Of a stretch of DNA of 51,243 nt, positions 7,313 to 37,489 are shown one piece after another; within the stretch, counting starts at the first letter, position 1, and each line of letters opens with the position of its first letter. The notes beneath the pieces are model-generated. The model saw only the letters and a program-made list of their open reading frames with translations, was not told where the DNA came from and ran no database searches. The position numbers and the translations under genes were made by a program. The DNA is from Bacteroidales bacterium (GTDB lineage: Bacteria > Bacteroidota > Bacteroidia > Bacteroidales > PUMT01): assembly GCA_007132225.1 (NCBI GenBank), contig SLPB01000139.1:1-51243 (forward strand). The letters are read 5' to 3'.

Positions 7313-7338
7313 ATAAACTCCTTTAAAAAAATTGACAA

Positions 7339-8802: not shown

Positions 8803-8823
8803 TACCTGAAACTATTTCTTGAA

Positions 8824-9375
8824 TTAGTCATATTTTATTACTTCGTATGGCAGCTCCAGCTCATTTCCTTTTATCAGTGCTGTAAGCGCCCCCCAGAGAA
8901 GTTCGGCATCCGGGGGACAGCCGGGCAGATAGTAATCCATCTTAACCACCTCATGGCAGGGATAAACCTTGTCCAGGAGGATCGGGAGCTCAACATCATT
9001 GGGCATTATACCTTCGGGATTTTCATCTTTGGTGGAAGGTCCGTTAAGATAGGCTTCTTCCAGACAATCGCTGACCGGCAGGCCGTTCCTGAGGGCCGGC
9101 AATCCGCCCATTATAGCACACTCGCCCACCGACACAAGTATTTTGCAGTGCTTTCTGAAATCCTTTAATACATGAACGTTATCATTATTACAGCAACCAC
9201 CTTCTATCAAGCCGATATCACATGGCCGGGTAAATTTTTTTATGTCGTTAATTGGCGATTTGTTAAAATCGACAAGTTCTATCAGTTCAAGTATTCTTTC
9301 ATCTATATCCAGAAGAGACATATGACATCCGAAACATCCTGCCAGGGAGGCCGTCGCTAATATGGGCTTACTCAT
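8824..9375 (-). CDS. hoxY: NAD-reducing [NiFe] hydrogenase small subunit
   Basis: A 183-residue short small subunit that carries a single proximal [4Fe-4S] cluster. The cysteine motifs are in order: CFGCH (residues 14-18), EGGCC, GECA and LPGCPP. There is no signal peptide and no C-terminal medial/distal cluster domain, as expected of HoxY. It passes electrons between HoxH and the HoxU clusters. ATG start, 24 bases after hoxU. Confidence 0.94.
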   Translation of the reverse strand: MSKPILATASLAGCFGCHMSLLDIDERILELIELVDFNKSPINDIKKFTRPCDIGLIEGGCCNNDNVHVLKDFRKHCKILVSVGECAIMGGLPALRNGLPVSDCLEEAYLNGPSTKDENPEGIMPNDVELPILLDKVYPCHEVVKMDYYLPGCPPDAELLWGALTALIKGNELELPYEVIKYD

Positions 9376-9399
9376 AATAATGGTATATTTTGATATTTA

Positions 9400-10098: not shown

Positions 10099-10168
10099 AA
10101 CCTTATAATTAAATTGTTACCTGTTTATGAACTTATCTCAGCGTGGGGGTTTTCCAGGGTGATATAAA

Positions 10169-11971: not shown

Positions 11972-12121
11972 AAAAACCTTGGATATTAAATAATTATATT
12001 ATTGTTATTTTTATGATATCAAATATAAATTATATTCCCTTTATAACAAGGCTTACCTGAGTACAATAATTATAAATAAGCAATGATTTTTCTCATATTT
12101 TCTTAATTTAATACCGGCAAA
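11972..12121. promoter_or_regulatory. Divergent hox/hyp promoter region
   Basis: A very AT-rich 150-base gap between the divergent starts of hoxF and hypF; it must hold the promoters of both operons. The palindrome TGATATCA (12014-12021) lies in it and could be part of a regulator site. No exact promoter consensus was identified. Confidence 0.4.
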
Positions 12122-14377
12122 GTGACAAAAGCTTCCTCCTTAATAACTATTAGCGGACTGGTTCAGGGTGTCGGGTTCCGCCCGGCAGTTTACCGGATTG
12201 CCTGCGAACTGGGAATAAAAGGATGGGTTAAAAACACCAATGAGAATGTCATTATATGCGCCACGGGGGATCCCGCTCAGATTGAAAAACTCACCCAACG
12301 AATCAGGATAGAACACCCCCCTGCTGCCGTTATTGAATCGATCAGGGAAGAACCTGCAGCATTGACGGAAGTCCAAGATTTCCACATCGCCTCAAGTCAA
12401 AGCACTTCATCGGGGATAACCAGGATAAGTCCCGATATATCGGTCTGCGGGGATTGTTTAAATGACCAGAAAAACCAACAGCACAGGCTGAACTATCCCC
12501 TTATCAACTGCACTAATTGCGGCCCGCGCTTCTCAATCATCAAATCACTTCCTTATGACCGCTCGCAGACAACCATGACCGGATTTGATATGTGTACACA
12601 ATGCAGGCAGGAATACCGGGATAGTGGTAACAGGAGGTTCCATGCCCAGCCGGTAGCCTGCAATCAATGCGGTCCGGGTTATTTGATGCATTACCAGGAG
12701 GAAAAGATCACCAGTATACAGGAAATCATCTCCAAAACAGCCGGTCTGGTTGATAACGGGGGAATTGCCGCCCTTAAAGGCACGGGAGGCTATAATCTCA
12801 TTTGCAATGCCTTTGATCCCCATCCGGTTGAAAAGCTGCGTACACTGAAAAACCGGGATCATAAACCTTTTGCCCTGATGGGAAGATCCTCAGAGCTTAT
12901 TAAAAAATATGCCTGCCTGAATGATCAGGAAATGCAGTTGCTTAATTCCTGGCAGCGCCCTATAGTTTTGCTGGAAGAGAAACAAAAGATCGGCGAGGGA
13001 ATTAACCCGGGACTTGACAAAATCGGGATTCTTCTACCCTGTATGCCTTTTCATTTCCAGCTTTTCGAATATCTCAAAACAGACCTGATAGTTTTTACCA
13101 GCGGCAACCTGAGTGATGAACCGGTAACCATTTCAGACAGCCAGGCACTGAAGCTGTTTCTGCCCGGTACAGATGCCGTTATCAGCTATAACAGAGAAAT
13201 TCATAATCGTGTTGACGACTCCGTTGTTTTTGTTTCCAACGGCAAAAACAGGTTCATAAGACGATCCAGGGGATATGCACCCTCCCCTGTAAAGGTGGAC
13301 TTTAATTGTGAAGGGATCATAGGAGCGGGGGCCGAACTAGCCAGTACCTTTGCAATAGGAAAAGAGCGGGAAGCAATTCTGAGCCAGCATACAGGCGATT
13401 TGAAGAACCCGGAAACACTGGAATTCTACGAGGAAAGCCTTAACAGGTTTGGCAAACTTTTCCGTTTCCGCCCAAAACTCATAGCATGTGACCTCCACCC
13501 GGACTATCTCTCCTCCCGATTTGCCGAATCAACGGGATTGCCATTGATAAAGATCCAGCACCACCATGCCCACATAGCTTCTGTAATGGCAGAACACCGG
13601 CTAGAAAAAGAGGTGATTGGCATCAGCCTGGACGGAACAGGACTGGGTGATGACGGCCATATATGGGGAGGCGAGTTTTTAATCTGCGATCTTAAAAACT
13701 ATGAACGTATTAATCACTATGAATACCGGCCCCTTCCCGGAGGAGATAAAGCAATAAAAGAACCGTGGAGAAATGCACTCGGACTTCTGTCCCACTTTTT
13801 CGGAGCTCAATGGGACAGGTTTGATATACCCTTTATCCATTTCATTAAACGTCAACCCAATTATGAGCTACTGCTGCAGGCGATCGGGAAAAAAATTAAC
13901 TGTCCCCTGACCTCCAGTGCCGGAAGGTTGTTTGACGCGGTTGCCGCACTGCTTATGATCTGCCCGGTCGCCGGACACCATGCCCAGGCACCCATGCTGC
14001 TTGAGGCTAAATTATACCCGGAAATTAAAGAAGAGTATTCCTTTGCCATTAAATCCCCGGTAGAATTAAAGCCTATGATTACGGACCTGCTCGGGGATAT
14101 TGAGAAGAAGAAGGATTTGGGATTTATCATCACCAGGTTTCATAATACCATTGTTTCTCTTAATTTTGCAATAGCCTGCCGGATCCGGAAAGAACGGGGA
14201 ATAAACCGGGTTGTATTGAGTGGGGGTGTTTTTCAGAACCGCTATATCCTTGATAAAACGGAGAACCGGCTGAACGAAAATGGGTTTGAAACCTATTCGA
14301 ACCAGCAGGTTCCGGTAAATGACGCAGGTATTTCGCTTGGCCAGCTGGCCATTGCCGCCTGCCGGATTAAAAAATAA
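12122..14377 (+). CDS. hypF: Carbamoyltransferase HypF
   Basis: A 751-residue enzyme that makes the cyanide ligand precursor for the NiFe site by carbamoylating HypE from carbamoyl phosphate. Domains in order are acylphosphatase (GLVQGVGFRPAVYRIA, residues 12-27), two zinc fingers with CGDC/CTNC and CTQC/CNQC, a YrdC-like domain (about 200-380), and a Kae1-like domain with HHHAHIASVMAEH and VVLSGGVFQNRYI. Full length. GTG start at 12122; no ATG upstream in frame fits. First gene of the hyp cluster, with hypC five bases after it. Confidence 0.95.
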   Translation: MTKASSLITISGLVQGVGFRPAVYRIACELGIKGWVKNTNENVIICATGDPAQIEKLTQRIRIEHPPAAVIESIREEPAALTEVQDFHIASSQSTSSGITRISPDISVCGDCLNDQKNQQHRLNYPLINCTNCGPRFSIIKSLPYDRSQTTMTGFDMCTQCRQEYRDSGNRRFHAQPVACNQCGPGYLMHYQEEKITSIQEIISKTAGLVDNGGIAALKGTGGYNLICNAFDPHPVEKLRTLKNRDHKPFALMGRSSELIKKYACLNDQEMQLLNSWQRPIVLLEEKQKIGEGINPGLDKIGILLPCMPFHFQLFEYLKTDLIVFTSGNLSDEPVTISDSQALKLFLPGTDAVISYNREIHNRVDDSVVFVSNGKNRFIRRSRGYAPSPVKVDFNCEGIIGAGAELASTFAIGKEREAILSQHTGDLKNPETLEFYEESLNRFGKLFRFRPKLIACDLHPDYLSSRFAESTGLPLIKIQHHHAHIASVMAEHRLEKEVIGISLDGTGLGDDGHIWGGEFLICDLKNYERINHYEYRPLPGGDKAIKEPWRNALGLLSHFFGAQWDRFDIPFIHFIKRQPNYELLLQAIGKKINCPLTSSAGRLFDAVAALLMICPVAGHHAQAPMLLEAKLYPEIKEEYSFAIKSPVELKPMITDLLGDIEKKKDLGFIITRFHNTIVSLNFAIACRIRKERGINRVVLSGGVFQNRYILDKTENRLNENGFETYSNQQVPVNDAGISLGQLAIAACRIKK

Positions 14378-14382
14378 ATATT

Positions 14383-14655
14383 ATGTGCCTGGCAATACCT
14401 GCTTTAATTATCGGAATTGAAAACGAAACAGCCACCGCTTCGGTTGGCGGAACAACCTTGGAAATCAACATCTCTTTGGTCGACGACGTGAAGGAGAATG
14501 ATTATGTACTGGTCCACAGCGGCTTTGCTCTTGAAAAAATTGATCGCGAAGAAGCGGAAAAAACACTTGAACTCTTCGGGGATTTTGAAGAGTTTAACAA
14601 AAAGCTGGATAAAGAGGAAGAGTCGTGGCGCCTGTCAGAGAAAAACTCATTATAA
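14383..14655 (+). CDS. hypC: Hydrogenase chaperone HypC
   Basis: A 90-residue protein starting MCLAIPALI; the cysteine after the initiator Met is the residue that binds the iron complex and the large subunit precursor. A small beta-barrel body follows (ATASVGGTTLEINISLVDDV, VLVHSGFALEKID). It works with HypD to carry the Fe(CN)2CO unit to HoxH. ATG start, tightly packed between hypF and hypD (one base separates its stop from the hypD start). Confidence 0.94.
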   Translation: MCLAIPALIIGIENETATASVGGTTLEINISLVDDVKENDYVLVHSGFALEKIDREEAEKTLELFGDFEEFNKKLDKEEESWRLSEKNSL

Positions 14656-14656
14656 T

Positions 14657-15742
14657 ATGAGATATATTGAGGAATATCGTGACAGGAAGATTACGGAACA
14701 GATCATCGATGCAATACACAGGATATCAACCAGCCCAGTCTCTATAATGGAGGTGTGCGGAGGGCACACCATGGCCATCCGGAAATCAGGCATACCTTAC
14801 CTGCTACCCGGCACAATAGACCTTATATCAGGCCCGGGGTGCCCGGTATGCGTTACAGGCAGGCAATTTATAGATCATGCCATCGAATTGAGCCGTATGC
14901 CGGGAGTAATCATAACCACCTATGGGGACCTTATGCGGGTTCCGGGAAGTAGCTCAACCCTCGGTAAGGAAAAAGCAGAAGGCTCAGATATACGTATGGT
15001 TTATTCCACCATGGAAGCTTTTACAATATCCCGGAATAATCCTTCCAGTAAAATTATTTTTCTGGCAATAGGTTTTGAGACCACAACTCCTCCCACTGCG
15101 GTAGCAGTTAAGCAGGCATATGACCGGAAAGCTGACAACTTTTTTGTTCTCAGCTCCCATAAAGTGATGCCCCCTGCCATGTCTGCCCTGATCGACGAAG
15201 GGGTAGCCATTGACGGCTACCTTGCTCCCGGTCATGTAAGCGTTATCACGGGAAGCAGCATTTACAACACTATTGCCGGCAAGTACAAAAAAGGAGTTGT
15301 TATATCAGGATTTGAACCTGTGGATATTCTTCAGTCCATCTACATGCTGGTTGACCAGATTGAAAAAAAACGGCCCCACGTGGCAATCCAGTATAAACGC
15401 GCCGTTAATCCCGGCGGTAATCCCAAAGCCAGGAAGGTGATTAACGAGGTTTTTGAACCGCGGGATGACTGGTGGAGGGGACTGGGAACCATCGGGGAGA
15501 GCGGACTGGGACTGAAAGGTAAATATGAACATCTGGATGCGGGAAAGGTTTTTAATGTTACCCTGCCAAAAACCCGGGAACCCGCAGGTTGTATTTGCGG
15601 GGAAATATTGAAGGGGACACGTAAACCCCCTGAATGTCAGCTTTTCGGGAAGGCATGCACTCCCATGAATCCTGTGGGAGCCTGCATGGTGTCAACCGAA
15701 GGATCCTGTGCCGCTCATTACCGCTATAACCAATATTGCTGA
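14657..15742 (+). CDS. hypD: Hydrogenase maturation iron-sulfur protein HypD
   Basis: A 361-residue protein that with HypC assembles the Fe(CN)2CO group. It shows MEVCGGHTM, GPGCPVCV and the C-terminal [4Fe-4S] region with CICGEILKG, PPECQLFGKACTP and GACMVSTEGSCAAHYRY. The open frame extends further upstream to 14498, but that part lies inside hypC and is unlike HypD. I therefore start at the ATG at 14657, one base after hypC, which gives the family's normal MRYIEEYRD opening and length. Confidence 0.95.
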   Translation: MRYIEEYRDRKITEQIIDAIHRISTSPVSIMEVCGGHTMAIRKSGIPYLLPGTIDLISGPGCPVCVTGRQFIDHAIELSRMPGVIITTYGDLMRVPGSSSTLGKEKAEGSDIRMVYSTMEAFTISRNNPSSKIIFLAIGFETTTPPTAVAVKQAYDRKADNFFVLSSHKVMPPAMSALIDEGVAIDGYLAPGHVSVITGSSIYNTIAGKYKKGVVISGFEPVDILQSIYMLVDQIEKKRPHVAIQYKRAVNPGGNPKARKVINEVFEPRDDWWRGLGTIGESGLGLKGKYEHLDAGKVFNVTLPKTREPAGCICGEILKGTRKPPECQLFGKACTPMNPVGACMVSTEGSCAAHYRYNQYC

Positions 15743-15744
15743 GG

Positions 15745-16752
15745 ATGACTGAAAAGATCTTACTGGAGCACGGAAGCGGGGGACGGCTGTCCCACCACCT
15801 GATTGCCAGTCTTTTTTTTAAATATTTCAACAATCCGGTTTTAAACCAGAACGGCGATTCAGCGCTGCTTAACAGCATCGATAACCCCGCTTTCACCACA
15901 GATTCATACGTTGTCGACCCCATCTTTTTCCCGGGGGGCAACATTGGCAAATTAGCTGTCTGTGGTACGGTCAACGACCTGGCAGCAACTGGTGCCGTGC
16001 CTTTATATCTTTCGGCCGGTTTTATCATAGAAGAGGGGTTGCCTTTTGCTGAGCTGGAAGAGATAGTTAAAACCATGGCAGAAGAGGCCGAAAAAGCAGG
16101 TGTAAAGATTGTAACCGGTGATACCAAGGTTGTCAACAGGGGACAATGCGACAAAATATTCATCAACACATCAGGAATAGGAACCATAGGGCCTGGCAAA
16201 CAAAACATTTCGGCAGGGACAATGATCAGGCCCGGAGACTCCATACTGATAAACGGATTTATAGGCGATCATGGGATTGCCGTAATGGGAAAAAGAGAAT
16301 CCCTTCAGTTCGGCTCGGATGTCCTTTCCGATTGTGCTTCGCTGCACCATATCTCAAAAAATTTAGTGGACAGGGTTGATGTTCATTTTATGAGGGATGC
16401 AACAAGGGGGGGACTGGCAACGGTGCTGACCGGGATATCTGAACAATACGGACTGGGAATTGAGATCGAGGAGGATAAGGTACCTGTCCGCGACAGCATC
16501 AGGGGACTGTGTGAGCTGTTTGGCTTTGATCCGCTATATGTTGCCAATGAAGGCAAAATGGTGGTGGTTGTACCCCCGGAGCAGGAGCAATCAGCCCTGG
16601 ACATAATACGGAGCAATGAACATGGAGAAGCAGGCTCGGTCATCGGCCGGATAACCGGCGATCATCCCGGAAAAGTGATCATGCACACCACTATTGGTGG
16701 AAAAAGGTTTGTTGATATGCTCACCGGGGAGCAGCTGCCCAGGATATGCTAA
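15745..16752 (+). CDS. hypE: Carbamoyl dehydratase HypE
   Basis: A 335-residue ATP-dependent enzyme of the AIR synthase/selenophosphate synthetase fold. It carries the carbamoyl group on its C-terminal cysteine, dehydrates it to a thiocyanate, and passes cyanide to the HypCD complex. The N-terminal LLEHGSGGRLSHHLI and C-terminal LPRIC-COOH are both present. I choose the ATG at 15745 over an in-frame TTG at 15736, because the ATG gives the normal MTEKILLEHGSGG start and has GAGG next to it. The gene starts just after the hypD stop. Confidence 0.95.
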   Translation: MTEKILLEHGSGGRLSHHLIASLFFKYFNNPVLNQNGDSALLNSIDNPAFTTDSYVVDPIFFPGGNIGKLAVCGTVNDLAATGAVPLYLSAGFIIEEGLPFAELEEIVKTMAEEAEKAGVKIVTGDTKVVNRGQCDKIFINTSGIGTIGPGKQNISAGTMIRPGDSILINGFIGDHGIAVMGKRESLQFGSDVLSDCASLHHISKNLVDRVDVHFMRDATRGGLATVLTGISEQYGLGIEIEEDKVPVRDSIRGLCELFGFDPLYVANEGKMVVVVPPEQEQSALDIIRSNEHGEAGSVIGRITGDHPGKVIMHTTIGGKRFVDMLTGEQLPRIC

Positions 16753-16779
16753 AGCAGTTACCCGGAATTTGCTAAGACG

Positions 16780-17121
16780 ATGCACGAATTTTCAATAGCA
16801 CTTAATATTGTTGAAATCGCCGAAGAATCGGCCAAAAAGGAGAATTGCCGGAAGATCATCTCCGTAAAGCTTGAGGTGGGGACACTCTCGGGGATTGTTT
16901 TTGAAGCACTGGAAACTGCCCTGGAGTTTGCAGTAAAAAAAACCATGCTTGATGGAGCGCAGATTGAAATCATGAAAACGGATGCGGAGGCTGAATGCGA
17001 AAATTGCCGGCGCCGGTTTCCTGTCAACGCTCATTTTGAAGCCTGTCCAAGTTGCAATAATTACAAGCACCGGCTTTTGCGGGGCGGAGAAATAAAGGTA
17101 ATTTCCATTGAAGCGGAATAA
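16780..17121 (+). CDS. hypA: Nickel insertion protein HypA
   Basis: A 113-residue metallochaperone that delivers Ni(II) to the large subunit together with HypB. It opens MHEFSIA, in which His2 (with the N-terminal amine) is the nickel ligand. A structural zinc site is formed by CENC and CPSC (about residues 73-76 and 90-93). ATG start, 27 bases after hypE. The order E-A-B is less common than A-B-F-C-D-E but all parts are present. Confidence 0.94.
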   Translation: MHEFSIALNIVEIAEESAKKENCRKIISVKLEVGTLSGIVFEALETALEFAVKKTMLDGAQIEIMKTDAEAECENCRRRFPVNAHFEACPSCNNYKHRLLRGGEIKVISIEAE

Positions 17122-17291
17122 GTCCCCGTTCCCCATGATACAAAAGTCCCACAAAAAAATATGAATATATTTTTGTTATTTTTATTACTTTGGAAATCAC
17201 AGATTAAATTTGGAACATATCATTAAATTCCGTTTTGCAGTATGAACCGCTTTGCTTTTAAGTTGAATTTTTTCCAAAAAAAATAAAGTAT

Positions 17292-18128
17292 ATGTGCAAC
17301 ACTTGTGGCTGCAGTGATAATGATCCGGTGCGGATGACAAGGCCTGGTAAAGACTCACCTGATCACGTAAATCATGGCGAAGCAAACCATCTACATGATG
17401 AGCATGACCACGATCACCATCACGGGCACCATCACGAGCATGATCAAGGCCATAAGCATGATCACGGGCACAGCCAATCCAGAACCATTGAAATCAAAGA
17501 AGATGCCCTTTCCCAAAATAACCTTCAGGCACGCCGCAACCGGGAATTACTGGAAAACAAAGGCATATTTACCCTTAACCTGGTCAGCTCTCCCGGCTCC
17601 GGAAAAACCTCCCTGCTTGAAAAGACCATACATGACCTGAAAGACAGGTGGCCCCTCTTTGTGATAGAGGGAGACCAGCAATCCATGAACGATGCCAACC
17701 GCATTGATGCCGCCGGGGCCCCTGTTATCCAGATTAATACAGGAAACGGCTGCCACCTGGATGCCGGAATGATAAAGAATGCCATCCGGCAGCTTCAGCC
17801 CGCAAAACACAGCCTGTTGTTTATAGAGAATGTGGGTAACCTTGTCTGCCCCGCACTCTTTGATTTAGGGGAAAAAAAGCGGGTGGTTATCATAAGCGTT
17901 ACCGAAGGTGATGACAAGCCCCTTAAGTATCCCGGCATGTTTGCTTCTTCGAATCTATGCATTATTAACAAAACCGACCTGCTTCCATATGTCGATTTTG
18001 ATATGGCAAAAGCCAGGGAATTTGCCAGCCGGGTCCGGCCGGATATAGAATTCATAGAAACATCCGTGCGGAATGGAGAGGGACTGGAGAGGTGGTATGA
18101 CTGGCTGGGAAAAAATAAACCCCGGTAA
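17292..18128 (+). CDS. hypB: Hydrogenase nickel GTPase HypB
   Basis: A 278-residue GTPase of the SIMIBI class. It has the N-terminal high-affinity nickel motif CNTCGC (C2, C5, C7), then a histidine-rich stretch with 17 His between residues 25 and 60, which suggests nickel storage. The GTPase domain follows with the P-loop SSPGSGKTSLLE, VIEGDQQ, FIENVGNLVCPA and NKTDLLPY. ATG start. It is separated from hypA by 170 bases, so it may also have its own promoter; TTATTACTTTGG at about 17183-17194 is one mismatch from the TAnnTTTG element. It is last in the cluster. Confidence 0.95.
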   Translation: MCNTCGCSDNDPVRMTRPGKDSPDHVNHGEANHLHDEHDHDHHHGHHHEHDQGHKHDHGHSQSRTIEIKEDALSQNNLQARRNRELLENKGIFTLNLVSSPGSGKTSLLEKTIHDLKDRWPLFVIEGDQQSMNDANRIDAAGAPVIQINTGNGCHLDAGMIKNAIRQLQPAKHSLLFIENVGNLVCPALFDLGEKKRVVIISVTEGDDKPLKYPGMFASSNLCIINKTDLLPYVDFDMAKAREFASRVRPDIEFIETSVRNGEGLERWYDWLGKNKPR

Positions 18129-18221
18129 CCCGGTTCTGGGGTAAACATGATGGGACCTGATTACAGCCTTAAACCCAAAAGTAAGCCGGTGGGGACAACT
18201 GGTGCTAATGCAGGCCCCTGA

Positions 18222-19424
18222 TTACTGCCTTTCGATCCAAAATGGCTGGCTTCCTATAAGTGCTCCCTGTTGCCTGTCTATAGAAAAATCAGAGGTATAC
18301 GCCATAAAATAGACATAAAACACGTCATCCGATCCATCTTTTAAAAAGTCAAATGACTCTCCGTTATGAATTTTTTCATTGTTAAAGTACCATGCAACAT
18401 GATCATAGCCAGTACCACTGACTGTTATACGGGAACCATTAAAATCAACTGATCCGATAACCGGTGCCTGTTCATCAGGCGCTTTGGCCACCCAGAAAAA
18501 AGCTCCCTCTTTCAAACTCTTGTAAACATTTTCTTGATCCAGTTTATCAAGAAGCTGGACCTGGTATCCCTGATCAATATCTTCAATTCTATGTAAATCG
18601 TCAGTTGATGTCATCCAGACAGGCCGCCAGTTGTCGGATCCCGGGGAGCCATAATGCATCAATAACCCGGACAACAGCTCTTTGCTGTACGGCCATCTTC
18701 CAGGTTCCCTGAATGTAGCCCGGGTGAATATGTCAATTCCAAAAATATGAGGATAATTATCAAAAAAATAAATATAATCCTCAACATCATTGTTATCCCG
18801 TTCCCTGCTCCTTGCCGGATGGGCAAAAGAGCTGAGTCCTCCTGCCTTTTCATTGGCTGCAAGGGTTTCCTCAAAATCCATACCTTCTCCTGAAACATCT
18901 GAAAACAAAGAAACCATATGATGATTTCGCGGACCGGTATGTGAGGGTTCCGCACCTTTAACCGCCAGCATTCCCAAATCTTCAGGGTTACGGTTGTTGT
19001 AAACAAAAACATCGTTATGAGAAAGTCCCACCAGGTCGCCTTCATCCTGTCGCCTGTAGGTCCGGCTGGAAACTTCAAAGGAAGAAAATTCCTGCCAGGG
19101 ATAAGTTACAAGCCAGTGGTCTGTGATAGCAAGAATATCATATCCCAGTTCATGATACCGGTCAACCACGTAGTGGGGACTGAAATAGCCATCGCTTGCT
19201 GTTGTGTGAGTATGAAGCTGTGCCCGTGCCTGGATAACATTGTCCCAGTCGATTCCCTTATAGGGACTAAATATTTCAACCTTTGAGGAACAACCAGTAA
19301 AGAAAGTCAATATTATAAATATCAAATAAGCACTTACTGACAATAAATACCGGCGAATAATTATAATCCTTGATCCCTCCTTATGGTTATACTGACTTTT
19401 AAATCCATTTGATAGTGAAATCAT
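18222..19424 (-). CDS. PHP-domain phosphoesterase, predicted lipoprotein
   Basis: A 400-residue protein with a lipoprotein signal: positive start (RRY), hydrophobic stretch LLSVSAYLIFIILTFF, then the TGCSS lipobox near residue 44. The PHP metal motifs follow: AQLHTHTTASDG, LAITDHW, EPSH, SSFAHPARS and a late GSDNW/STDD region. The family holds trinuclear-metal phosphoesterases; the substrate is unknown. It would be anchored on the outside of the inner membrane or in the outer membrane. It is convergent with hypB and stands alone. A structured sequence lies upstream at 19453-19532. Confidence 0.82.
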   Translation of the reverse strand: MISLSNGFKSQYNHKEGSRIIIIRRYLLSVSAYLIFIILTFFTGCSSKVEIFSPYKGIDWDNVIQARAQLHTHTTASDGYFSPHYVVDRYHELGYDILAITDHWLVTYPWQEFSSFEVSSRTYRRQDEGDLVGLSHNDVFVYNNRNPEDLGMLAVKGAEPSHTGPRNHHMVSLFSDVSGEGMDFEETLAANEKAGGLSSFAHPARSRERDNNDVEDYIYFFDNYPHIFGIDIFTRATFREPGRWPYSKELLSGLLMHYGSPGSDNWRPVWMTSTDDLHRIEDIDQGYQVQLLDKLDQENVYKSLKEGAFFWVAKAPDEQAPVIGSVDFNGSRITVSGTGYDHVAWYFNNEKIHNGESFDFLKDGSDDVFYVYFMAYTSDFSIDRQQGALIGSQPFWIERQ

Positions 19425-19452
19425 AATTATTTATTATTAATAAATGAAATTT

Positions 19453-19532
19453 TTTTCCCTGTTAGTTTGTGAGTTATAAATAACCGATTGAAAGCAGTCC
19501 CGTTAAATTCCTTTTAACGGATACAGGGAAAA
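19453..19532. repeat. Two nested inverted repeats upstream of the PHP gene
   Basis: TTTTCCCTGT (19453-19462) pairs exactly with ACAGGGAAAA (19523-19532). Inside it CCGTTAAA (19500-19507) pairs with TTTAACGG (19513-19520). On the minus strand this would fold in the leader of the PHP gene, whose ATG is at 19424. No known riboswitch class was recognised. Confidence 0.55.
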
Positions 19533-19571
19533 TACAACAGGTAAGTATATAAAAAATAACTGATTATACCA

Positions 19572-19610
19572 GAAGAAGGGGGAATTTATTTTAACTTATT
19601 CCCCCTCTTC
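19572..19610 (-). terminator. Hairpin just after lysA, possible terminator
   Basis: GAAGAAGGGGGAAT (19572-19585) pairs with ATTCCCCCTCTTC (19598-19610) with one bulged base. It lies directly after the lysA stop. A good T-run is lacking, so it may act as a transcript-end stabiliser rather than a full terminator. Confidence 0.45.
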
Positions 19611-19612
19611 CT

Positions 19613-20806
19613 TCAAAGGTTTGCAGATTGCATGGATTGAATTGCCTCATACTCTTCTGCCTTTAAAATATTACCTTCTGACATGAAAAGTGATGCAGGT
19701 TTATCCCTGAGGTTGAAATTAAGGGTCATCGATTCGGCATAGGCACCGCAGGAAAGTATCTGAAGCAAATCACCGCGGTTTGTTACCGGTAAAATGGCAT
19801 CTTTTGCAAAAATATCACTGGACTCACATACGGGGCCTACAATATCATAGGTTTCCGGATCACCTGATGAGCTGATGTTACTTATTTTATGAACCGCCTG
19901 GTATAATGAGGGCCTCATAAGTTCAGTCATGCCGGCATCGGTTATCACGAACTTTTTTCCGATACCCTGCTTGGTATATATAACCCTGGTAACTATTCTG
20001 CCACATTGTCCGACCAGGCTGCGCCCAAGCTCGAAATGAATCTCAATACCGGCAGGTAAAGTCAGTGTTTCAGAGAATACTTCAAAAAAAGAGGCAAAAT
20101 CAGGTATGGGATTCATTTCAGGATCATTATAATCAATTCCAAGGCCTCCTCCCATATTTAAAATATGTCCTCCGTAACCTGATATATTAAATTCTTTCCA
20201 TATCTGGTTAACCCTTTCACACAATCTCCGGTATGGCTCCAGCGAAGTTATCTGTGAACCTATATGAAAATGCAATCCGATAAAATCCAGGTGTTCAGAA
20301 CCACTGCAGACATCCAGGGCCGCCTGCAGATATGGAAGACTTATACCGAATTTATTTTCGTCCATGCCCGTTGCTATATAGTGATGAGTGGGAGCTTCAA
20401 CAGAAGGGTTGACTCGCAATGCAACCCGTGCAACTTTACCGGAATTCTTAGCAATTTCTTCAATGACCCTGAGCTCTTCCACCGATTCACAATTCAAACA
20501 CAAAATATCCTCATCAAGAGCTACTTGTATTTCTTCGTCTGTTTTACCCACACCTGCGAATACAACTCCCTTCCTGGGAAATCCCAGTTCGATGGACTTA
20601 ATAACTTCGTTTCCGCTTACGCAATCAACACCAATCCCACTGTCTCTGATAATGCCTGAAACTAAAGGATTACTGTTTGCCTTGATAGCATAATGAATTA
20701 CAAATCCGTGCCTGGCGGCTTCTTTCATAGCATATGAAACCGTTTTCTCAAGCAAATTAAGGTCATATAAGTAAAAAGGAGTTCTTATGTTTGTGAAATC
20801 AACCAT
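19613..20806 (-). CDS. lysA: Diaminopimelate decarboxylase
   Basis: A 397-residue PLP enzyme of the alanine racemase/ornithine decarboxylase fold-III family that converts meso-diaminopimelate to lysine. The PLP lysine is in HYAIKANSN (about residue 43). The phosphate-binding GGGLGIDY (about 217), the substrate motif CESSD (about 329) and CGAYAESM are all present. ATG start; its first 22 bases overlap the end of the upstream aspartate kinase gene, so the two are translationally coupled. This marks that kinase as the lysine-branch isozyme. Confidence 0.93.
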   Translation of the reverse strand: MVDFTNIRTPFYLYDLNLLEKTVSYAMKEAARHGFVIHYAIKANSNPLVSGIIRDSGIGVDCVSGNEVIKSIELGFPRKGVVFAGVGKTDEEIQVALDEDILCLNCESVEELRVIEEIAKNSGKVARVALRVNPSVEAPTHHYIATGMDENKFGISLPYLQAALDVCSGSEHLDFIGLHFHIGSQITSLEPYRRLCERVNQIWKEFNISGYGGHILNMGGGLGIDYNDPEMNPIPDFASFFEVFSETLTLPAGIEIHFELGRSLVGQCGRIVTRVIYTKQGIGKKFVITDAGMTELMRPSLYQAVHKISNISSSGDPETYDIVGPVCESSDIFAKDAILPVTNRGDLLQILSCGAYAESMTLNFNLRDKPASLFMSEGNILKAEEYEAIQSMQSANL

Positions 20807-24840: not shown

Positions 24841-26634
24841 TTAATACCTCTTTCTTTCTTTATAATGAGTATGGAGAAGTTCGTGGGATTTATGGCTCAG
24901 GGGTTCACCAAGAAATTCCTTGTAAATTGCCACAACCTCAGGATTTTCATGCGACTTCCTGATCGGCTTTCCGGCGTCTTCCAGGTAGATTGCCTCAGTA
25001 CGTTTTTTCCGTATCTCCATATTTGTAGGAATTGGCTGTCCTCCTCCCCCTATACATCCTCCGGGACATGCCATTATCTCAATAAAATGGTAATCAGCTT
25101 CACCTGACTTTACCTTCTCCATTACATATTTAGCATTGGTAAGGCCGTGTGCAGTTACTGTTTTAAGTTCTGCGCCCTCGAGAAAGCTCCACTCTGGAAC
25201 TGTACCTTCAATCTTAACAGTTACTTCCTTAATACCATTCATTCCTCTTACCGGGGTGATATTCAAATTTTCGAACGGCACCTCGCGTCCGGTAACTATT
25301 TCATATGCAGTACGCAAAGCTGCTTCCATAACACCGCCTGTTGCACCGAAGATAACAGCGGCTCCGGTAGACTCACCCATAATGCTGTCATAATTTTCTT
25401 CCGGAAGAGCATCAAAATCCAGTCCTGCCTGTTTTATCATAATAGCCAGCTCCCGCGTGGTAAGTACATAATCGACATCCTTGTGGCCGCTGCTCCTCAT
25501 CTCAGGCCGGTCAGCCTCAAATTTCTTTGCCGTGCAGGGCATAATGGAAACGGACACAATGTTCTCAGGGTCTATATTCCTTTTCTTTGCATAATAGGTC
25601 TTTGCCAGTGCACCGAACATCTGCTGGGGTGATTTACATGTTGAAAGGTTATCCAGGTATTCCGGGAATGTATGTTCTATGAACTTAATCCAGCCGGGGG
25701 AACAGGAAGTTGCCATTGGCAGTTTAACGGTAGGATCCTTGTCAACCAAAGCCTTTTTAAGTCTGGTAAGCAATTCTGTCCCTTCCTCCATAATTGTCAG
25801 GTCGGCAGAAAAGTCGGTATCAAGAACAGAGTCAAAACCTATTCTTTTCAGAGCTGCCACCATTTTACCGGTAACCACATGTCCGGCTTCCAGTCCAAGA
25901 TCTTCGCCGAGAGCTACTCTTGTTGCAGGAGCTGTTTGTACTACAACATGTTTATTATCTTTGTAAATAGCATCCCAAACCTCATCCACGTAGTTTCGTT
26001 CTATAAGTGAACCTGTCGGGCAGCGGTTAATGCATTGTCCGCAATTGGTGCAAACTACATCGTACATGGAGTTTTCAAAGAAAGTGGAGATCTTCATCTT
26101 ATCTCCTTTATATGCCACACCCAGTGCACTTACATGCTGAAGCTCCTCGCAGGTTCGAACGCAACGCTGACAGCGTATACATTTACTGTCATCCTTTATA
26201 ATGGAGGGCGAGAAATTATCGATTGTATAATTCTTCAGTGGTACCAGGTCAATGAACATGGGTTCGCCGGTATTCTTGTACTCACTTGCAAGGTCCTGCA
26301 GTTCGCACGATTTGTTTTTGTAGCACTGAGTGCAATCGGCGTTATGCTCTGAAAGCAGTAACTCAATAATATTCTTACGGGCAGACCGGACCTTCAGACT
26401 GTTGGTATGAATATCCATGCCATCTGAAACAGGCATTGCACATGAAGCTACCAGGGCACGTGCCCCTGTTACCTCCACCACGCAAACCCTGCAGTTTCCG
26501 GCTACACAAAGGTCCTCATGATAGCACAATGTTGGAATGTGCACATTTATATTCCTGGCTGCATCCAATATGGTTTTACCCTCTTCAACCTTTACATCAA
26601 CACCGTTAATTTTTAAGCTTATATTTTTAGCCAT
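24841..26634 (-). CDS. hydA: NADH-dependent [FeFe] hydrogenase catalytic subunit
   Basis: A 597-residue NuoG-like [FeFe] hydrogenase (HndD/HydA type). Order: plant-type [2Fe-2S] domain (C37, C43, C48, C51 region), HNADCTQCYKNKSC (97-110), two [4Fe-4S] motifs CIRCQRCVRTC (152-162) and CTNCGQCINRC (195-205), then the H-cluster domain. L2 (MPCTAKKFE, C367) and L3 (MACPGGCIGGGGQP) are standard. L1 reads TSCSPGW (309-315), with Ser312 where the usual TSCCPxW has its second Cys. Length matches HndD, without the long C-terminal extension of Thermotoga HydA. ATG start; last gene of the hydC-hydB-hydA operon. HydE/F/G maturases are not in the window. Confidence 0.94.
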   Translation of the reverse strand: MAKNISLKINGVDVKVEEGKTILDAARNINVHIPTLCYHEDLCVAGNCRVCVVEVTGARALVASCAMPVSDGMDIHTNSLKVRSARKNIIELLLSEHNADCTQCYKNKSCELQDLASEYKNTGEPMFIDLVPLKNYTIDNFSPSIIKDDSKCIRCQRCVRTCEELQHVSALGVAYKGDKMKISTFFENSMYDVVCTNCGQCINRCPTGSLIERNYVDEVWDAIYKDNKHVVVQTAPATRVALGEDLGLEAGHVVTGKMVAALKRIGFDSVLDTDFSADLTIMEEGTELLTRLKKALVDKDPTVKLPMATSCSPGWIKFIEHTFPEYLDNLSTCKSPQQMFGALAKTYYAKKRNIDPENIVSVSIMPCTAKKFEADRPEMRSSGHKDVDYVLTTRELAIMIKQAGLDFDALPEENYDSIMGESTGAAVIFGATGGVMEAALRTAYEIVTGREVPFENLNITPVRGMNGIKEVTVKIEGTVPEWSFLEGAELKTVTAHGLTNAKYVMEKVKSGEADYHFIEIMACPGGCIGGGGQPIPTNMEIRKKRTEAIYLEDAGKPIRKSHENPEVVAIYKEFLGEPLSHKSHELLHTHYKERKRY

Positions 26635-26667
26635 CTCTAATCTTTTAATAATTTTATTTGCGATTTA

Positions 26668-27828
26668 TTAATATATCATCTCTTCCCTGAAGTTGTTAAC
26701 AATTGAAGAGAAAGAATTTGCAACCGACTGTCCCAGTCCGCATTTAGAAGCCATCTTCATGGTATCACTCAATTTAAGCAACTGCTCAAGATAAACAGCT
26801 TTCTTCTCTCCTTTTTTTACAGCTTCCACACCCTTCATTAACTGCTGGCAACCAACACGGCAGGGGGTGCATTGTCCGCATGATTCTTCTTCAAAAAACT
26901 CGAGATAATTATGCAAAACATTGTACATGGAACGTGAACTGTTGAATACCTTCATGGATCCCCCGGTTGGTACCCCTTCAAAACCGATAATGGTTTCCTT
27001 GAACTTCTTCCTGGGAACGCAAAAACCGGCAGCCCCGCCAACCTGTACGGCTTTAGTATCGCCGTCACCAAATTCCTCAACAAAATGTTCGAGTGACATG
27101 CCCAGTTCCAGCTCATAAATACCCGCAATAGGTGTATCTCCTGATACGGAAAACACTTTTGACCCCCGGGAATCCGATGTACCCATCTCCTTGAAGCGCA
27201 ATGGTCCGTGCTTGCAAATCATAAATGCATAAACCAGGGTTTCAACATTGTTTATTACAGTCGGCTTATTTTTAAAGCCTGCAACTGTAGGATACGGGGG
27301 CTTATTCCTGGGCTCCCCCCTCTTGCCTTCCATTGATTCAAACAGAGCACTTTCTTCCCCGCAGATATATGCACCGCTACCCATCTGGATAAAAATCTCA
27401 AAATCAATAAGATCCTTGATGTCCCGGTGAAATGTATCCAGAGCTTTTTGTAACTCGGGTAAGAGGTAACGATATTCCCCCCTGAGGTAAATATATCCCT
27501 TTTTGGCTCCTATAACTTTTGCACAAACTGCCATTCCACTAAAAACTTTGCTGGGTACTTTAAAAAGTATCTCCCTGTCCTTGAATGTACCAGGCTCCCC
27601 TTCATCTGCATTGCAAATCACAAAACGTTCGTCAGCAGGCTGTTCGGCGGTGAACTTCCATTTTAGTCCGGTAGGAAATCCGGCCCCTCCCCTTCCTTTC
27701 AGTCCTGACTCCAGGACATCGTTAATAATATCATCATTGGATTTACTAAAGGTCTTTTCCAGCACCTGGCGGCACTCGCAATCCTCATGAAAAATAAGAT
27801 CTATTCTCTTTAATGTGTTAACTGTCAT
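26668..27828 (-). CDS. hydB: [FeFe] hydrogenase NuoF-like subunit, short form
   Basis: A 386-residue flavoprotein with the NuoF core only: FMN motif KGRGGAGFPTGLKW (44-57), NAD motif GSGAYICGEESA, and [4Fe-4S] ligands in EESCGQCTPCR plus CGLG. The N-terminal thioredoxin-like [2Fe-2S] domain and the C-terminal two-cluster ferredoxin domain of the roughly 600-residue bifurcating HydB/HndC proteins are both absent. It moves electrons between NAD(H) and HydA. ATG start, 35 bases after hydC. No stop or frameshift suggests the shortening is a recent truncation. Confidence 0.92.
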   Translation of the reverse strand: MTVNTLKRIDLIFHEDCECRQVLEKTFSKSNDDIINDVLESGLKGRGGAGFPTGLKWKFTAEQPADERFVICNADEGEPGTFKDREILFKVPSKVFSGMAVCAKVIGAKKGYIYLRGEYRYLLPELQKALDTFHRDIKDLIDFEIFIQMGSGAYICGEESALFESMEGKRGEPRNKPPYPTVAGFKNKPTVINNVETLVYAFMICKHGPLRFKEMGTSDSRGSKVFSVSGDTPIAGIYELELGMSLEHFVEEFGDGDTKAVQVGGAAGFCVPRKKFKETIIGFEGVPTGGSMKVFNSSRSMYNVLHNYLEFFEEESCGQCTPCRVGCQQLMKGVEAVKKGEKKAVYLEQLLKLSDTMKMASKCGLGQSVANSFSSIVNNFREEMIY

Positions 27829-27863
27829 AGCGAGATTCTCCTTTATTTAAATATTTTATATTA

Positions 27864-28334
27864 TTATTTGTTTTTGGCATAATCGGTGATAATTTCAATA
27901 GCCTTATCAACCGTCAGTTTAGTGTATGCCTGATCATTAATAAGCATGGCCGGCCCTTCGTGACACCATCCCATACAATTGGTTTCCAACAGGGTAAACT
28001 TATTATTTTGGGTTGTCTCACCTAATTTTATTTTCAGGGAGTCTTCAATTGCCTGAATAATCTGGTTCTTCCCTTTCATATCACAACTGATTGTCCGGCA
28101 TACACGTATTACATATTTACCTCTTGGCTCGGTATCCAGAAAAGTGTAAAATGTAGCAGTACCGTATACCTGTGCGGCAGACAAATCAAGTTCCCGGGCA
28201 ACTTCACTAAGGGCTACATCTGACAAATATCTCTCCTCTTTAACTATGCCTTGCAAAATATGTAAAAGATTTTCTCTCTTTCTGCCATATTTGTCGGCCA
28301 AACTTTTTACTAATTCCTGAACTTCTGGCATCAT
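27864..28334 (-). CDS. hydC: [FeFe] hydrogenase NuoE-like subunit
   Basis: A 156-residue thioredoxin-like [2Fe-2S] protein. All four ligands are present: C79 and C84 (CRTISC) and C120 and C124 (CMGWC), the normal Cx4C...Cx3C pattern of NuoE/HydC. It pairs with HydB to form the NADH-handling module. First gene of the operon; ATG start at 28334 (a second in-frame ATG follows at once). Confidence 0.93.
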   Translation of the reverse strand: MMPEVQELVKSLADKYGRKRENLLHILQGIVKEERYLSDVALSEVARELDLSAAQVYGTATFYTFLDTEPRGKYVIRVCRTISCDMKGKNQIIQAIEDSLKIKLGETTQNNKFTLLETNCMGWCHEGPAMLINDQAYTKLTVDKAIEIITDYAKNK

Positions 28335-33797: not shown

Positions 33798-35510
33798 TTA
33801 ATGGCTGAACTTAAATGAAGACAGATCCTTTAATTTGAAATTTCTGATATAATTTGCTCTTTCAATGTTTTGTGCCTTTGATTTACCAATAAAGATGAGG
33901 GCGGACTGCAGATAAGATTCATCTCGTTTGGAGTCCCGTAAAAGTAAATAACACATTATTATATTACCTGCCATTTCGACCAGGCGCCGGGCATGAAAAT
34001 CCATGAGCTCATTATTATCGGCCTCTGTTACTATTCTGACGCATTCTTCATATTCATCTGTCATGGACGTTAAGACAGGTTTCAGATGCTCAAGTTCAGA
34101 ACTAAAAGTTTCTTTCTGATAAGTTTCCCTGATGTAGCCAAGGTAAGTGCCGGAAGTTACCCCACGGATAGCAGCAACAACCTGAAGCTGGGACGTTCCT
34201 TCATATATTGAAGTTATCCTGGCATCCCGGTATATACGTTCAATTGGAAAATCCTTCATAAATCCGGCTCCGCCATGTACCTGCAATGAATCATATGCAA
34301 TCTCGTTTGAGTATTCGCTTGCTATTAATTTTAGCAAAGGAGTAAACACATCGGCAAGGCGCTGATACTTCTTCTGTTCATTACGTTCTTCAGGTTCTAA
34401 TTTACGCTCTTCGGATAAAAAGTTTAAATTCTTGTAAATATCAACAAACCTGGCTGTTTCATAAAGAAGTGAGCGCTGGGCCTTGATTCTGACTTCCATA
34501 TTCCTCAGCATTTCATAAACTCCGGGAAAATTGATAATAGCCTTGCCAAACTGGGTTCTCTCCTCAGCATATTTAAGTGCTTCCCTGTATGCAGCTTCTG
34601 ATATGCCGACCGACTGGGCCGCCACGCCAAGCCTGGCACTGTTCATAAGTGACATAACATATTTTATAAGTCCAAACTTTCGGTTTCCTATGAGTTTGGC
34701 AGGAGCATTTTTAAAAACAAGTTCACAGGTCGGCGATCCCTTTATACCCAGTTTATTTTCAATTCTCCTTACAGTAAGAGCCTTATCCTTTTTGTCATAG
34801 ACAAAAAGTGACAGGCCCCTGCCATCGGAAGTTCCGTCTTCCGACCTGGCCAGAACAAGGGATATGTCGGCATCCCCGTTGGTAATAAAACGTTTCACCC
34901 CGTTCAGTATCCAGCTATCTTTCTGCTCATCATATGTAGCTTTAAGCTGTACTGCCTGAAGATCAGAACCGGCATCAGGTTCAGTAAGATCCATAGCTGC
35001 AGTTGCTCCTTTATTAAAACGTGGAAGAAACTCGTCCTTTATCTCTTCCGAAGCAAACTCATGCAGTGTTTCTGCACAATCCTGCAATCCCCAGATATTT
35101 GCAAAACCGGCATCAGCCCGGGAAACTATTTCAGCTGCCATTACATAGGGCACCATCGGAAAATTCAGTCCCCCATATTTTCTTGGCAACGACATACCGA
35201 TCAATCCGGCCCTTGTAAGAGCTTCGTGATTTTCCTGGGTACCCCTGGCATATTTTACCTCATTATTCAACAGGGTGGGGCCTTCAGCATCAACAGATTC
35301 TGCATTGGGTGAAATAATATTACCGCAAATATCGCCTACGATTTCCAAAATCTTATCATAGCTGTCCATTGCATCTTCAAAATCGAGAAAAGCATAATCA
35401 CAACTATCCTTTTCAATAAAATCAAGTTCTTTAAGCTGTACTATCTTTTTCATCAGGGGATGACCCAGATGAAACTTAAGATCCTTATTATCTGTATAAT
35501 AATTTGCCAT
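33798..35510 (-). CDS. Acyl-CoA dehydrogenase
   Basis: A 570-residue flavoprotein, longer than the usual 380-400 because of an N-terminal lead (about 50 residues) and a C-terminal extra helical domain (about 430-570). The core is normal: LTEPDAGSDLQAVQLKA, WILNGVKRFITNGDAD, the arginine-containing ERTQFGK, and IYEGTSQLQV with the likely catalytic Glu. It oxidises acyl-CoA to enoyl-CoA (or the reverse) with ETF as partner. Its ATG overlaps the etfA stop by one base (TAATG), so the three genes etfB-etfA-acd form one operon set. Chain-length specificity is unknown. Confidence 0.9.
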   Translation of the reverse strand: MANYYTDNKDLKFHLGHPLMKKIVQLKELDFIEKDSCDYAFLDFEDAMDSYDKILEIVGDICGNIISPNAESVDAEGPTLLNNEVKYARGTQENHEALTRAGLIGMSLPRKYGGLNFPMVPYVMAAEIVSRADAGFANIWGLQDCAETLHEFASEEIKDEFLPRFNKGATAAMDLTEPDAGSDLQAVQLKATYDEQKDSWILNGVKRFITNGDADISLVLARSEDGTSDGRGLSLFVYDKKDKALTVRRIENKLGIKGSPTCELVFKNAPAKLIGNRKFGLIKYVMSLMNSARLGVAAQSVGISEAAYREALKYAEERTQFGKAIINFPGVYEMLRNMEVRIKAQRSLLYETARFVDIYKNLNFLSEERKLEPEERNEQKKYQRLADVFTPLLKLIASEYSNEIAYDSLQVHGGAGFMKDFPIERIYRDARITSIYEGTSQLQVVAAIRGVTSGTYLGYIRETYQKETFSSELEHLKPVLTSMTDEYEECVRIVTEADNNELMDFHARRLVEMAGNIIMCYLLLRDSKRDESYLQSALIFIGKSKAQNIERANYIRNFKLKDLSSFKFSH

Positions 35511-36529
35511 TATTTTGTGTTCTTTTGATAAAACTTAATCATTTTAGGAATGATCTCTGTAAGATCACCATTTATTGTATAATCGGCTATTTGATTAATT
35601 GGTGCCTCTGTATCATTGTTAATTGAGATTATGATTGCAGACTGGTCCATGCCTGCCCTGTGTTGTATCTGGCCGGATATTCCACATGCAATATATAATT
35701 TTGGGCGTACCGTTACCCCCGTCTGTCCCACCTGGCGCTCATGCTCAACAAAACCGCCATCTACTGCAGCCCTGGATCCAGCAACCTCGCCACCCAGAAC
35801 CGCTGCCAGTTCATAGAGAAGATTAAAATTTTCCCTTGAACCAACACCATATCCGCCGGCAACAATAATTCCGGCATTTTTAATATTTACCTTGCTGCTT
35901 TCTATGTGCCTTTCGATAATGCGGACAACAAAATCATCATCACTAAGCCAGTCAGCGACATCAATCTGATTGACATCCCCGTAGTGATCGGCAGAATTTA
36001 TCTCTTTTTTCATTACACCCTCTCTTACCGTGGCCAGTTGCGGACGGGTATCAGGATTGATAATGGTGGCAATTATATTGCCGCCAAAAGCAGGCCTGAT
36101 CTGGTAAAGTAAATCCTTATATTCTTTCTTTGTTTTGTTTTCGGTATGATTGCCGATTTCCAGCGCTGTACAGTCCGCCGTTAGTCCGCATTTCAATACT
36201 GATGCTATTCTCGGTGCAAGGTCCCTTCCAATTGAAGTTGCACCAAACAACCCTATAGATGGTTTTTCCTGCTCAAAAAGTCTCTTTACTATGGCAGTAT
36301 GCGGATTTGTAGTATAGGGATAAAGTCGCTTTTCATCGGCAACATGAACTATATCTGCTCCGTAGGGGAATATCTGTTTCTCTATGCTTTTAATATCAGA
36401 TCCGATAACAACAGCTTCAAGTTTGCATTTTTTCAGGTTGGCAAGTGACCGTCCTTTTGAAAGCAGTTCAAGACTTACTTCTGCAATTTGTCCCTCTTCT
36501 ATTTCACAATAAACAAAAACGTTGTTCAC
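35510..36529 (-). CDS. etfA: Electron transfer flavoprotein alpha subunit
   Basis: A 339-residue EtfA/FixB protein. The C-terminal FAD domain shows GYGVGSRENFNLLYELAAVLGGEVAGSRAAVDGGF, QVGQTGVTVRPKLYIACGISGQIQHRAGM and ISINNDTEAPI, the standard FAD-binding signature. The N-terminal domain interacts with EtfB. The start is a GTG at 36529; there is no ATG nearby. It lies 84 bases after etfB and overlaps the acyl-CoA dehydrogenase start by one base. Confidence 0.93.
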   Translation of the reverse strand: MNNVFVYCEIEEGQIAEVSLELLSKGRSLANLKKCKLEAVVIGSDIKSIEKQIFPYGADIVHVADEKRLYPYTTNPHTAIVKRLFEQEKPSIGLFGATSIGRDLAPRIASVLKCGLTADCTALEIGNHTENKTKKEYKDLLYQIRPAFGGNIIATIINPDTRPQLATVREGVMKKEINSADHYGDVNQIDVADWLSDDDFVVRIIERHIESSKVNIKNAGIIVAGGYGVGSRENFNLLYELAAVLGGEVAGSRAAVDGGFVEHERQVGQTGVTVRPKLYIACGISGQIQHRAGMDQSAIIISINNDTEAPINQIADYTINGDLTEIIPKMIKFYQKNTK

Positions 36530-36613
36530 TTTTTTCTTATTTAAATTATCAATAGTTAAATGGTTATAAAAGAATGATCATATTATATGGCCTTTAAATT
36601 TCCAGGCCTCATC

Positions 36614-37489
36614 CTAACCTATGGTATGATTATCAATCAATTCTTTCATCAGGTATTCAATATCTCCATCAGCCGCTGAAAGTACTTTGGACTCCCGGCT
36701 GGTGAAGACCACGTTTTCAATCTTTTTAACCTTGGTTGGAGATCCTGATAAACCCAACTGTTCAAGGTCCGCATCTATATCGTCAATTCCCCACTCCCGA
36801 ATAAGTAAATAAGGTCTGTCTTTTTGCAGTTGAAGATAGTCTTCACTGGTATCCTGGAGCTCGCTGAGACTTCTAGCATGTTTATACTTGATTGTATATT
36901 TGGCATGACGTGCACGACATTCGGGTGCCGAACTGTGAACCGTTATAACAACAGGCATGGGAGCGGCCACTGTTTCCACACCCCTTTCAAGCCGTCTTTT
37001 AACGGTAATTACCCCTTTTTTTACCGAAAGTATATCTTCGGCATAAGTAATCTGGGGCAAGCCTAGTTTTTCAGCTACCTGAGGGCCTACCTGGGCTGTA
37101 TCACCATCTATAGCCTGCCGGCCGGCTATGACGATATCAAAAGGAGAAAGTTTCCTGATAGCAAGAGAAATACTATAAGAGGTAGCCAGGGTATCGGACC
37201 CTGCAAATTTACGGTCTGTAAGAAGATACCCGTCATCGGCGCCACGATACATTGCCTCCCTTATTATCTCGGCAGCTCTCCCGGGTCCCATAGTCAGAAC
37301 AGTGATAGTGGTACCAGGATATTTATCCTTTATTCGGAGCGCCTGCTCCAGGGCATTCAGGTCTTCAGGATTGAAGATCGCAGGTAAAGCAGCCCGGTTT
37401 ACAGTACCATCAGCTTTCATCGCATCTTTACCAACATTACGTGTATCGGGCACCTGCTTGGCCAGTACAATTATTTTTAATCCCTTCAT
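36614..37489 (-). CDS. etfB: Electron transfer flavoprotein beta subunit, bifurcating-type motif
   Basis: A 291-residue EtfB/FixA protein, longer than the roughly 250-265 of classical EtfB. Residues 123-136 read GRQAIDGDTAQVGP, whereas classical EtfB has a GKQAIDDDCNQTGQ-like sequence with AMP bound. The DGDTAQVGP form is the one reported for ETFs in which FAD replaces AMP and that can bifurcate electrons. This is a motif-based inference only. ATG start; first gene of the ETF-acyl-CoA dehydrogenase operon. Confidence 0.92.
   Translation of the reverse strand: MKGLKIIVLAKQVPDTRNVGKDAMKADGTVNRAALPAIFNPEDLNALEQALRIKDKYPGTTITVLTMGPGRAAEIIREAMYRGADDGYLLTDRKFAGSDTLATSYSISLAIRKLSPFDIVIAGRQAIDGDTAQVGPQVAEKLGLPQITYAEDILSVKKGVITVKRRLERGVETVAAPMPVVITVHSSAPECRARHAKYTIKYKHARSLSELQDTSEDYLQLQKDRPYLLIREWGIDDIDADLEQLGLSGSPTKVKKIENVVFTSRESKVLSAADGDIEYLMKELIDNHTIG

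Follow-up and report, generated by a model that had tools for sequence, protein, structure and literature searches.

The 51,243-nucleotide stretch of DNA analysed here (the window), which comes from a Bacteroidales-type draft genome, carries a three-gene operon, hydCBA, whose product is very probably a non-bifurcating, NADH-dependent [FeFe]-hydrogenase of the kind represented by Hyd1ABC of Syntrophomonas wolfei, an assignment made by likeness of sequence. We know of no Bacteroidales member of this kind that has been characterised biochemically. Earlier publications already describe the short architecture of the beta subunit, explain what it means for function and report that it occurs together with bifurcating forms, as the available parts of three sources make clear (Losey et al. 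2017, Losey et al. 2020, PMC11406978). The main text of Losey et al. (2020, PMC7311640) contains no word starting with 'bacteroid', and no description of the short form in Bacteroidales was found in the titles and abstract openings of a partially covered literature or in the available portion of PMC7382037.

The hydCBA operon and the architecture of HydB

The three genes lie on the minus strand. hydC (27864..28334, 156 aa) encodes a NuoE-like [2Fe-2S] thioredoxin-fold gamma subunit (Pfam 2Fe-2S_thioredx, 158.6 bits), hydB (26668..27828, 386 aa, ATG start) a NuoF-like beta subunit consisting of an NADH/FMN domain and one [4Fe-4S] site, and hydA (24841..26634, 597 aa) the [FeFe]-hydrogenase catalytic subunit (Pfam; NCBIfam NF040763). 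HydA combines NuoG-like [2Fe-2S] and [4Fe-4S] domains, a two-cluster ferredoxin-like domain and the H-cluster domains; the Pfam search of this protein found no C-terminal [2Fe-2S] domain. The operon partners expected of the Hyd1ABC kind, an H-cluster HydA and a NuoE-like HydC, are present, and the maturases HydE, HydF and HydG are encoded in the genome, each above its cut-off.

HydB matches two Pfam domains, Complex1_51K (residues 39-199) and NADH_4Fe-4S (304-384), and no other family. The GRGG of the FMN/NADH motif starts at residue 45, and the chain extends 24 residues from the C of CGLG, which bears out the sequence-only reading that HydB starts near the FMN motif and stops soon after the NuoF [4Fe-4S] motif. 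That reading had also held that the N- and C-terminal iron-sulfur domains of bifurcating HydB are missing, and the two core Pfam domains and the motifs agree with it: Pfam and motif searches of the window HydB found neither a [2Fe-2S] domain at the N-terminus nor a ferredoxin domain at the C-terminus, and no zinc-hinge-like motif. By the same means, the complement of clusters B2-B5 that belongs to the definition of an electron-bifurcating HydABC/Bfu enzyme was not found in this HydB; B2 is the zinc or B2 site, B3 and B4 are C-terminal and B5 is N-terminal (PMC9304861, PMC9499530, PMC11406978). There is no room for hidden domains around hydB, because only 35 bases separate it from hydC upstream and 33 bases from hydA downstream.

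Comparison with long homologues

Outside the window, the source genome encodes three further HydB paralogues, all of the long kind (597 aa on contig C122, 592 aa on C128, 650 aa on C109); the window itself also encodes a 600-residue HoxF-type protein, a fusion of NuoE-like and NuoF-like domains. The collection assembled for comparison consisted of 133 open reading frames containing both GRGG.GF and ESCG.C..CR, a filter that excluded the partial genes of L025 and L077, L092, and a partial short HydB of 289 residues at the end of L136. Removal of copies left 111 distinct sequences, 100 of them short (78 from named records, 22 from the source genome and related genomes) and 11 long, the latter comprising ten bifurcating-type proteins (three from the source genome, seven from relatives) and one HoxF-type protein.

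Lengths among the 100 distinct short sequences, of which the window HydB is one, span 385-413 residues, and in every one 24 residues extend from CGLG to the end, as against 97 in the ten bifurcating-type HydB and 56 in the HoxF-type protein. At the other end, GRGG, which stands at residue 45 in the window HydB, is preceded by 159-219 residues in the 11 distinct long homologues. A His-Cys-Cys motif after CGLG, which we take as part of the zinc site described for Thermotoga maritima HydB (PMC9499530), occurs in all ten bifurcating-type long HydB and in none of the 100 short ones. The two C-terminal Cys-rich cluster motifs are likewise a feature of the ten bifurcating-type proteins and are found in none of the 100 short ones. 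The L158 stretch ends early and hence shows one such motif instead of two.

A tree of the shared NuoF core was built from 57 rows (26 drawn from the 100 short sequences, all 11 long ones and 20 others), sampled from the source genome, same-order relatives and named Bacteroidota-type records; it is unrooted, with a midpoint used for drawing. The 26 short rows form one group with support of 100/100, and a branch supported at 100/99 separates the 16 bifurcating-type rows from the short rows, 13 HoxF-type rows and two NuoF-like rows of ~410 residues. Short and HoxF-type rows appear as sisters (93/78 in this unrooted tree), a relation that is unsure because the program warned of long branches joined there. 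Among solved structures, the best match of the window HydB is 5xf9_A, a chain of an NAD-reducing hydrogenase, at 322.9 bits over residues 177-546 of its 591, and bifurcating-family chains score lower (9n5u_B (NfnB) 300.2, 7q4w_B 277.2 and 7p5h_B 273.0). We take 5xf9_A to be a HoxF whose partner is a [NiFe] enzyme. In the window, by contrast with that 591-residue chain, HydC and HydB are separate proteins and the partner is [FeFe].

Residues that mark non-bifurcating beta subunits

Losey et al. (2020, PMC7311640) put forward residue criteria that divide non-bifurcating from bifurcating beta subunits. In the part of that source available, the non-bifurcating pattern consists of T/S at position 232 and K/S/A at position 234 of T. 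maritima HydB, in the NADH site, Tyr at T. maritima HydB position 367 near FMN, and an SLBB region without GGPSG (PMC7311640). With positions located by motif, rather than by aligning to the T. maritima sequence, the window HydB shows the non-bifurcating state in all three places: T and K at the NADH site, in NADEGEPGTFKDR, Y in PPYP near FMN, and GGAAG where GGPSG would stand in the SLBB region.

How far these criteria hold outside the window varies from one to the next. T and K occupy the NADH site in all 100 distinct short HydB, and the first criterion also holds in 13 of 13 HoxF-type proteins (window 10169-11971 and L143-L154). GGPSG occurs nowhere in the 100 short HydB and is present in the ten bifurcating-type long HydB, one of which (the divergent C109 protein) is without A/M at the NADH site. 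The HoxF-type proteins, 7 of 13 of which have GGPSG, yielded neither hinge nor C-terminal ferredoxin motifs in the motif search and are expected to be non-bifurcating according to the available text of two studies (PMC9304861, PMC11406978). The Tyr criterion is soft, because the residue near FMN is Y in 83 and F in 17 of the 100 short HydB, Y instead of F in two of the ten bifurcating-type proteins, and F in all 13 of the HoxF-type ones. Given these exceptions, the published criteria are useful, yet not absolute beyond the set behind them.

Annotation of the catalytic subunit was dropped as evidence for non-bifurcation. The window HydA scores 884.3 bits against NCBIfam NF040763 'group A6' (NADH-dependent; cut-off 765), the HydA of C109 falls below at 732.4, and the bifurcating-type HydA of C136 passes at 899.5; since both the window HydA and that of C136 pass, the label does not discriminate. 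Generic hydrogenase labels of this sort (NF040763) thus fail to separate the NADH-only and bifurcating kinds, and models that take every HydABC as bifurcating would misjudge the balance of H2 and NADH in such genomes.

Distribution of the short form in relatives

For the named loci, comparison was confined to the best 80 of 585 relatives, each at least 68% identical to the window HydB. Within these best 80 of 585, HydC lies upstream of the short HydB in all 80 and HydA downstream in 79, the exception ending at a contig end. Most of the 80 are labelled Bacteroidales or Bacteroidetes, a few Alphaproteobacteria, Chlorobiota or Chitinophaga; the divergent labels are taken as a reflection of uneven label quality. 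Cultured relatives such as Marinifilum and Carboxylicivirga are among the carriers of hydCBA.

Short hydB, called where identity reached at least 62% in an open frame of fewer than 430 residues, was found in 49 of 99 genomes (the source and 98 same-order relatives), a count in which five genes are broken, partial or at a contig end (G083, G054, G098, G004 and G075). Within the genus it is present in 12 of 13 genomes, G008 being the sole one without it. In this sample, roughly half of the same-order genomes thus appear to share a kind of non-bifurcating hydrogenase that is biochemically characterised elsewhere.

Functional assignment and known systems

Purified S. wolfei Hyd1ABC oxidised NADH and reduced NAD+ without ferredoxin, and its 407-residue HydB1 has neither the [2Fe-2S] domain at the N-terminus nor the [4Fe-4S] domain at the C-terminus (Losey et al. 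2017, PMC5626996, in the portion available). The window enzyme, likened to it by description, also has three subunits and a short HydB (386 residues) in which both domains are missing. The hosts differ, S. wolfei being a Firmicute and fatty-acid syntroph and the window's host a Bacteroidales-type draft genome that also carries bifurcating-type [FeFe]-hydrogenase genes and Rnf. By analogy, the likeness to Hyd1ABC and the residues of Losey et al. (2020) lend support to the initial suggestion that the complex may oxidise NADH directly with no need of ferredoxin, as reported for some syntrophs.

Other systems are described in partially available sources. Such clusters are stated to be absent from non-bifurcating homologues by Schut et al. 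(2022, PMC9304861) and in the eLife 2022 study of the T. maritima structure (PMC9499530). HydAB of Syntrophus aciditrophicus, NADH-dependent without ferredoxin, shares the non-bifurcating beta subunit, although there HydB (66 kDa) carries the gamma part as an N-terminal fusion, whereas HydC is separate in the window (PMC7311640). Sub-type II BfuABC of Hydrogenedentota, again without clusters B3, B4 and B5 and judged non-bifurcating, is nearly always found beside a putatively bifurcating sub-type in one genome, as here; it belongs to a different phylum, and the likeness is taken from its description (PMC11406978). The bifurcating HydABC of T. maritima (7p5h, 7q4v) has a homologous HydA, HydB core and HydC, but its HydB of ~600 residues includes a zinc hinge and a ferredoxin-type bridge domain, neither of which is present in the window HydB (PMC9499530).

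In the electron path that these features suggest, NADH would hand hydride to FMN in HydB, and electrons would then leave FMN singly, cross the sole [4Fe-4S] cluster of HydB, enter HydA by its NuoG-like clusters and reach the H-cluster, the site at which protons would be converted to H2 or the reverse would take place. The ferredoxin branch, made up of the N-terminal [2Fe-2S], the hinge site and the two-cluster C-terminal HydB domain, is missing, and without it the reaction should be reversible and governed only by NADH/NAD+, pH and H2 pressure. H2 would be made only where its level is very low, and taken up with formation of NADH where it is high.

It is possible, if doubtful, that in the cell the enzyme runs mainly in reverse, as an H2-uptake, NAD+-reducing hydrogenase rather than an H2 producer. 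Hyd1ABC of S. wolfei also reduced NAD+ with H2 (PMC5626996, available portion), and all seven named relatives with at least 90% identity among the best 80 of 585 (L036-L041 and L077) carry the label CSSed or T3Sed10, names given to sediment metagenomes from soda lakes; the brine of Cock Soda Lake has a pH of 10 (PMC6704655, available text). With textbook potentials, equilibrium H2 at an NADH/NAD+ of 1 comes to ~65 Pa at pH 7 and is tenfold lower per pH unit, so that H2 release would be disfavoured if the cytoplasm were alkaline. However, many relatives without a soda-lake label have the same short HydB, and the argument depends on the organism's cytoplasmic pH, H2 level and NADH/NAD+.

It is very improbable that the complex still bifurcates because another polypeptide, for example the 132-residue product of the gene next to long hydB or a ferredoxin-like subunit, brings the missing domains. 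Subunit composition is variable across the superfamily (PMC7311640, in the part available), and a gene for a protein of 131-132 residues stands just before long HydB in C122, G039, G096, G054 and G002, the source-genome copy (C122) having no Pfam match. Yet no such gene lies within or directly next to the window hydCBA, the long HydB of relatives has its own HydA and HydC-like protein alongside, and the hinge and NADH-site residues of the short form stay non-bifurcating in pattern. That HydB is a truncated remnant or an assembly error and the complex inactive can be dismissed as vanishingly improbable, for although the genome is a fragmented draft of 181 contigs, the frame and operon are intact, length and C-terminal end are alike in 100 distinct sequences, and stop codons occur in one of 49 short-form matches among related genomes (G083). 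A frameshift or assembly artefact at hydB is ruled out by the intact open reading frame, the small intergenic gaps and the many distinct sequences of like length.

Neighbourhood of short and long HydB loci

On C109 the long hydB is followed by a HydA gene. C122 ends 134 bases past its long hydB, C136 starts with hydA at base 6, and long hydB and hydA are adjacent in the relatives mapped; the bifurcating-type operon of the source genome is therefore probably divided over C122 and C136. The third long-HydB operon (C128 4119-10263) has no hydrogenase partner. Its large partner of 1237 aa contains [2Fe-2S], pyridine-nucleotide oxidoreductase and molybdopterin oxidoreductase domains, and the operon encodes a bifurcating-family enzyme other than a hydrogenase, a candidate formate dehydrogenase.

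The short and long loci of the source genome lie on separate contigs. Gene maps were drawn for 11 relatives, chosen partly for having both genes on one contig and hence biased towards pairs, and in six of these 11 (G039, G094, G096, G062, G072 and G054, the last with its short hydB cut by a contig end) a long-HydB locus lies ~8-11 kb from short hydB. The module between the loci encodes DRTGG-like, HATPase-like, ~450-residue iron-sulfur and PHP-like proteins, named from the C122 copies; the 453-residue iron-sulfur protein on C122 has a hydrogenase-domain match of 82.8 bits. Short and long hydB are ~21 kb apart in G002. In G020 the module follows hydCBA up to the contig end, as it does, minus the iron-sulfur protein, in G047, and it was not seen in the gene maps of G046 and G037. 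Eleven of the 80 named loci (the best 80 of 585, in stretches that cover 4 kb or less on the downstream side of HydB) contain the module.

A tentative proposal is that the NADH-only HydCBA and the bifurcating-type HydABC of Bacteroidales are a conserved pair, often adjoining, which would have in common a module of regulatory genes and a putative sensory hydrogenase, and that the cell might switch with H2 level between ferredoxin-coupled and NADH-only H2 exchange, uptake included.

Physiological context

The genome carries an rnf cluster on C30, with RnfB, C, D, G, E and A each above a subfamily cut-off, and matches the [FeFe]-hydrogenase domain six times, one of them in the window. It also has four POR-family matches; these alone are no proof of a pyruvate:ferredoxin oxidoreductase, because the family also matches in 11 of 14 control genomes. 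An NADH-only enzyme is unlikely to serve as a sole indicator of syntrophy (Losey et al. 2020, PMC7311640, available part), and syntrophy was dropped as a conclusion for this genome, which encodes Rnf, POR-family proteins, bifurcating-type [FeFe]-hydrogenases and a Hox-like [NiFe]-hydrogenase.

As a separate observation, genes for an acyl-CoA dehydrogenase and both electron-transfer flavoprotein subunits form one cluster (window 33798-37489) ~5.5 kb upstream of hydC.

Genes for a predicted Hox-like [NiFe]-hydrogenase

A predicted Hox-like, NAD-linked [NiFe]-hydrogenase is encoded by genes for the large subunit (7339-8802), small subunit (8824-9375), a HoxU-like protein (9400-10098) and the HoxF-type protein (10169-11971). 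They belong to a stretch of ~14 kb (window 5655-19696) that also contains hypF, hypD, an AIR-synthase-like gene, which we take to be hypE, and cobW/HypB-like genes. At the corresponding place in the genus-mate G002 this stretch is missing, the flanking DNA blocks standing ~130 bases apart there, and across the other 12 genus members the best match to the window HoxF has at most 49% identity. The ~14-kb stretch looks like an insertion in the source lineage or a loss in the others.

The [NiFe] Hox-like genes (7339-11971) and the [FeFe] hydCBA operon (24841-28334), both NAD-linked and predicted to be non-bifurcating, lie ~13 kb apart in the window.
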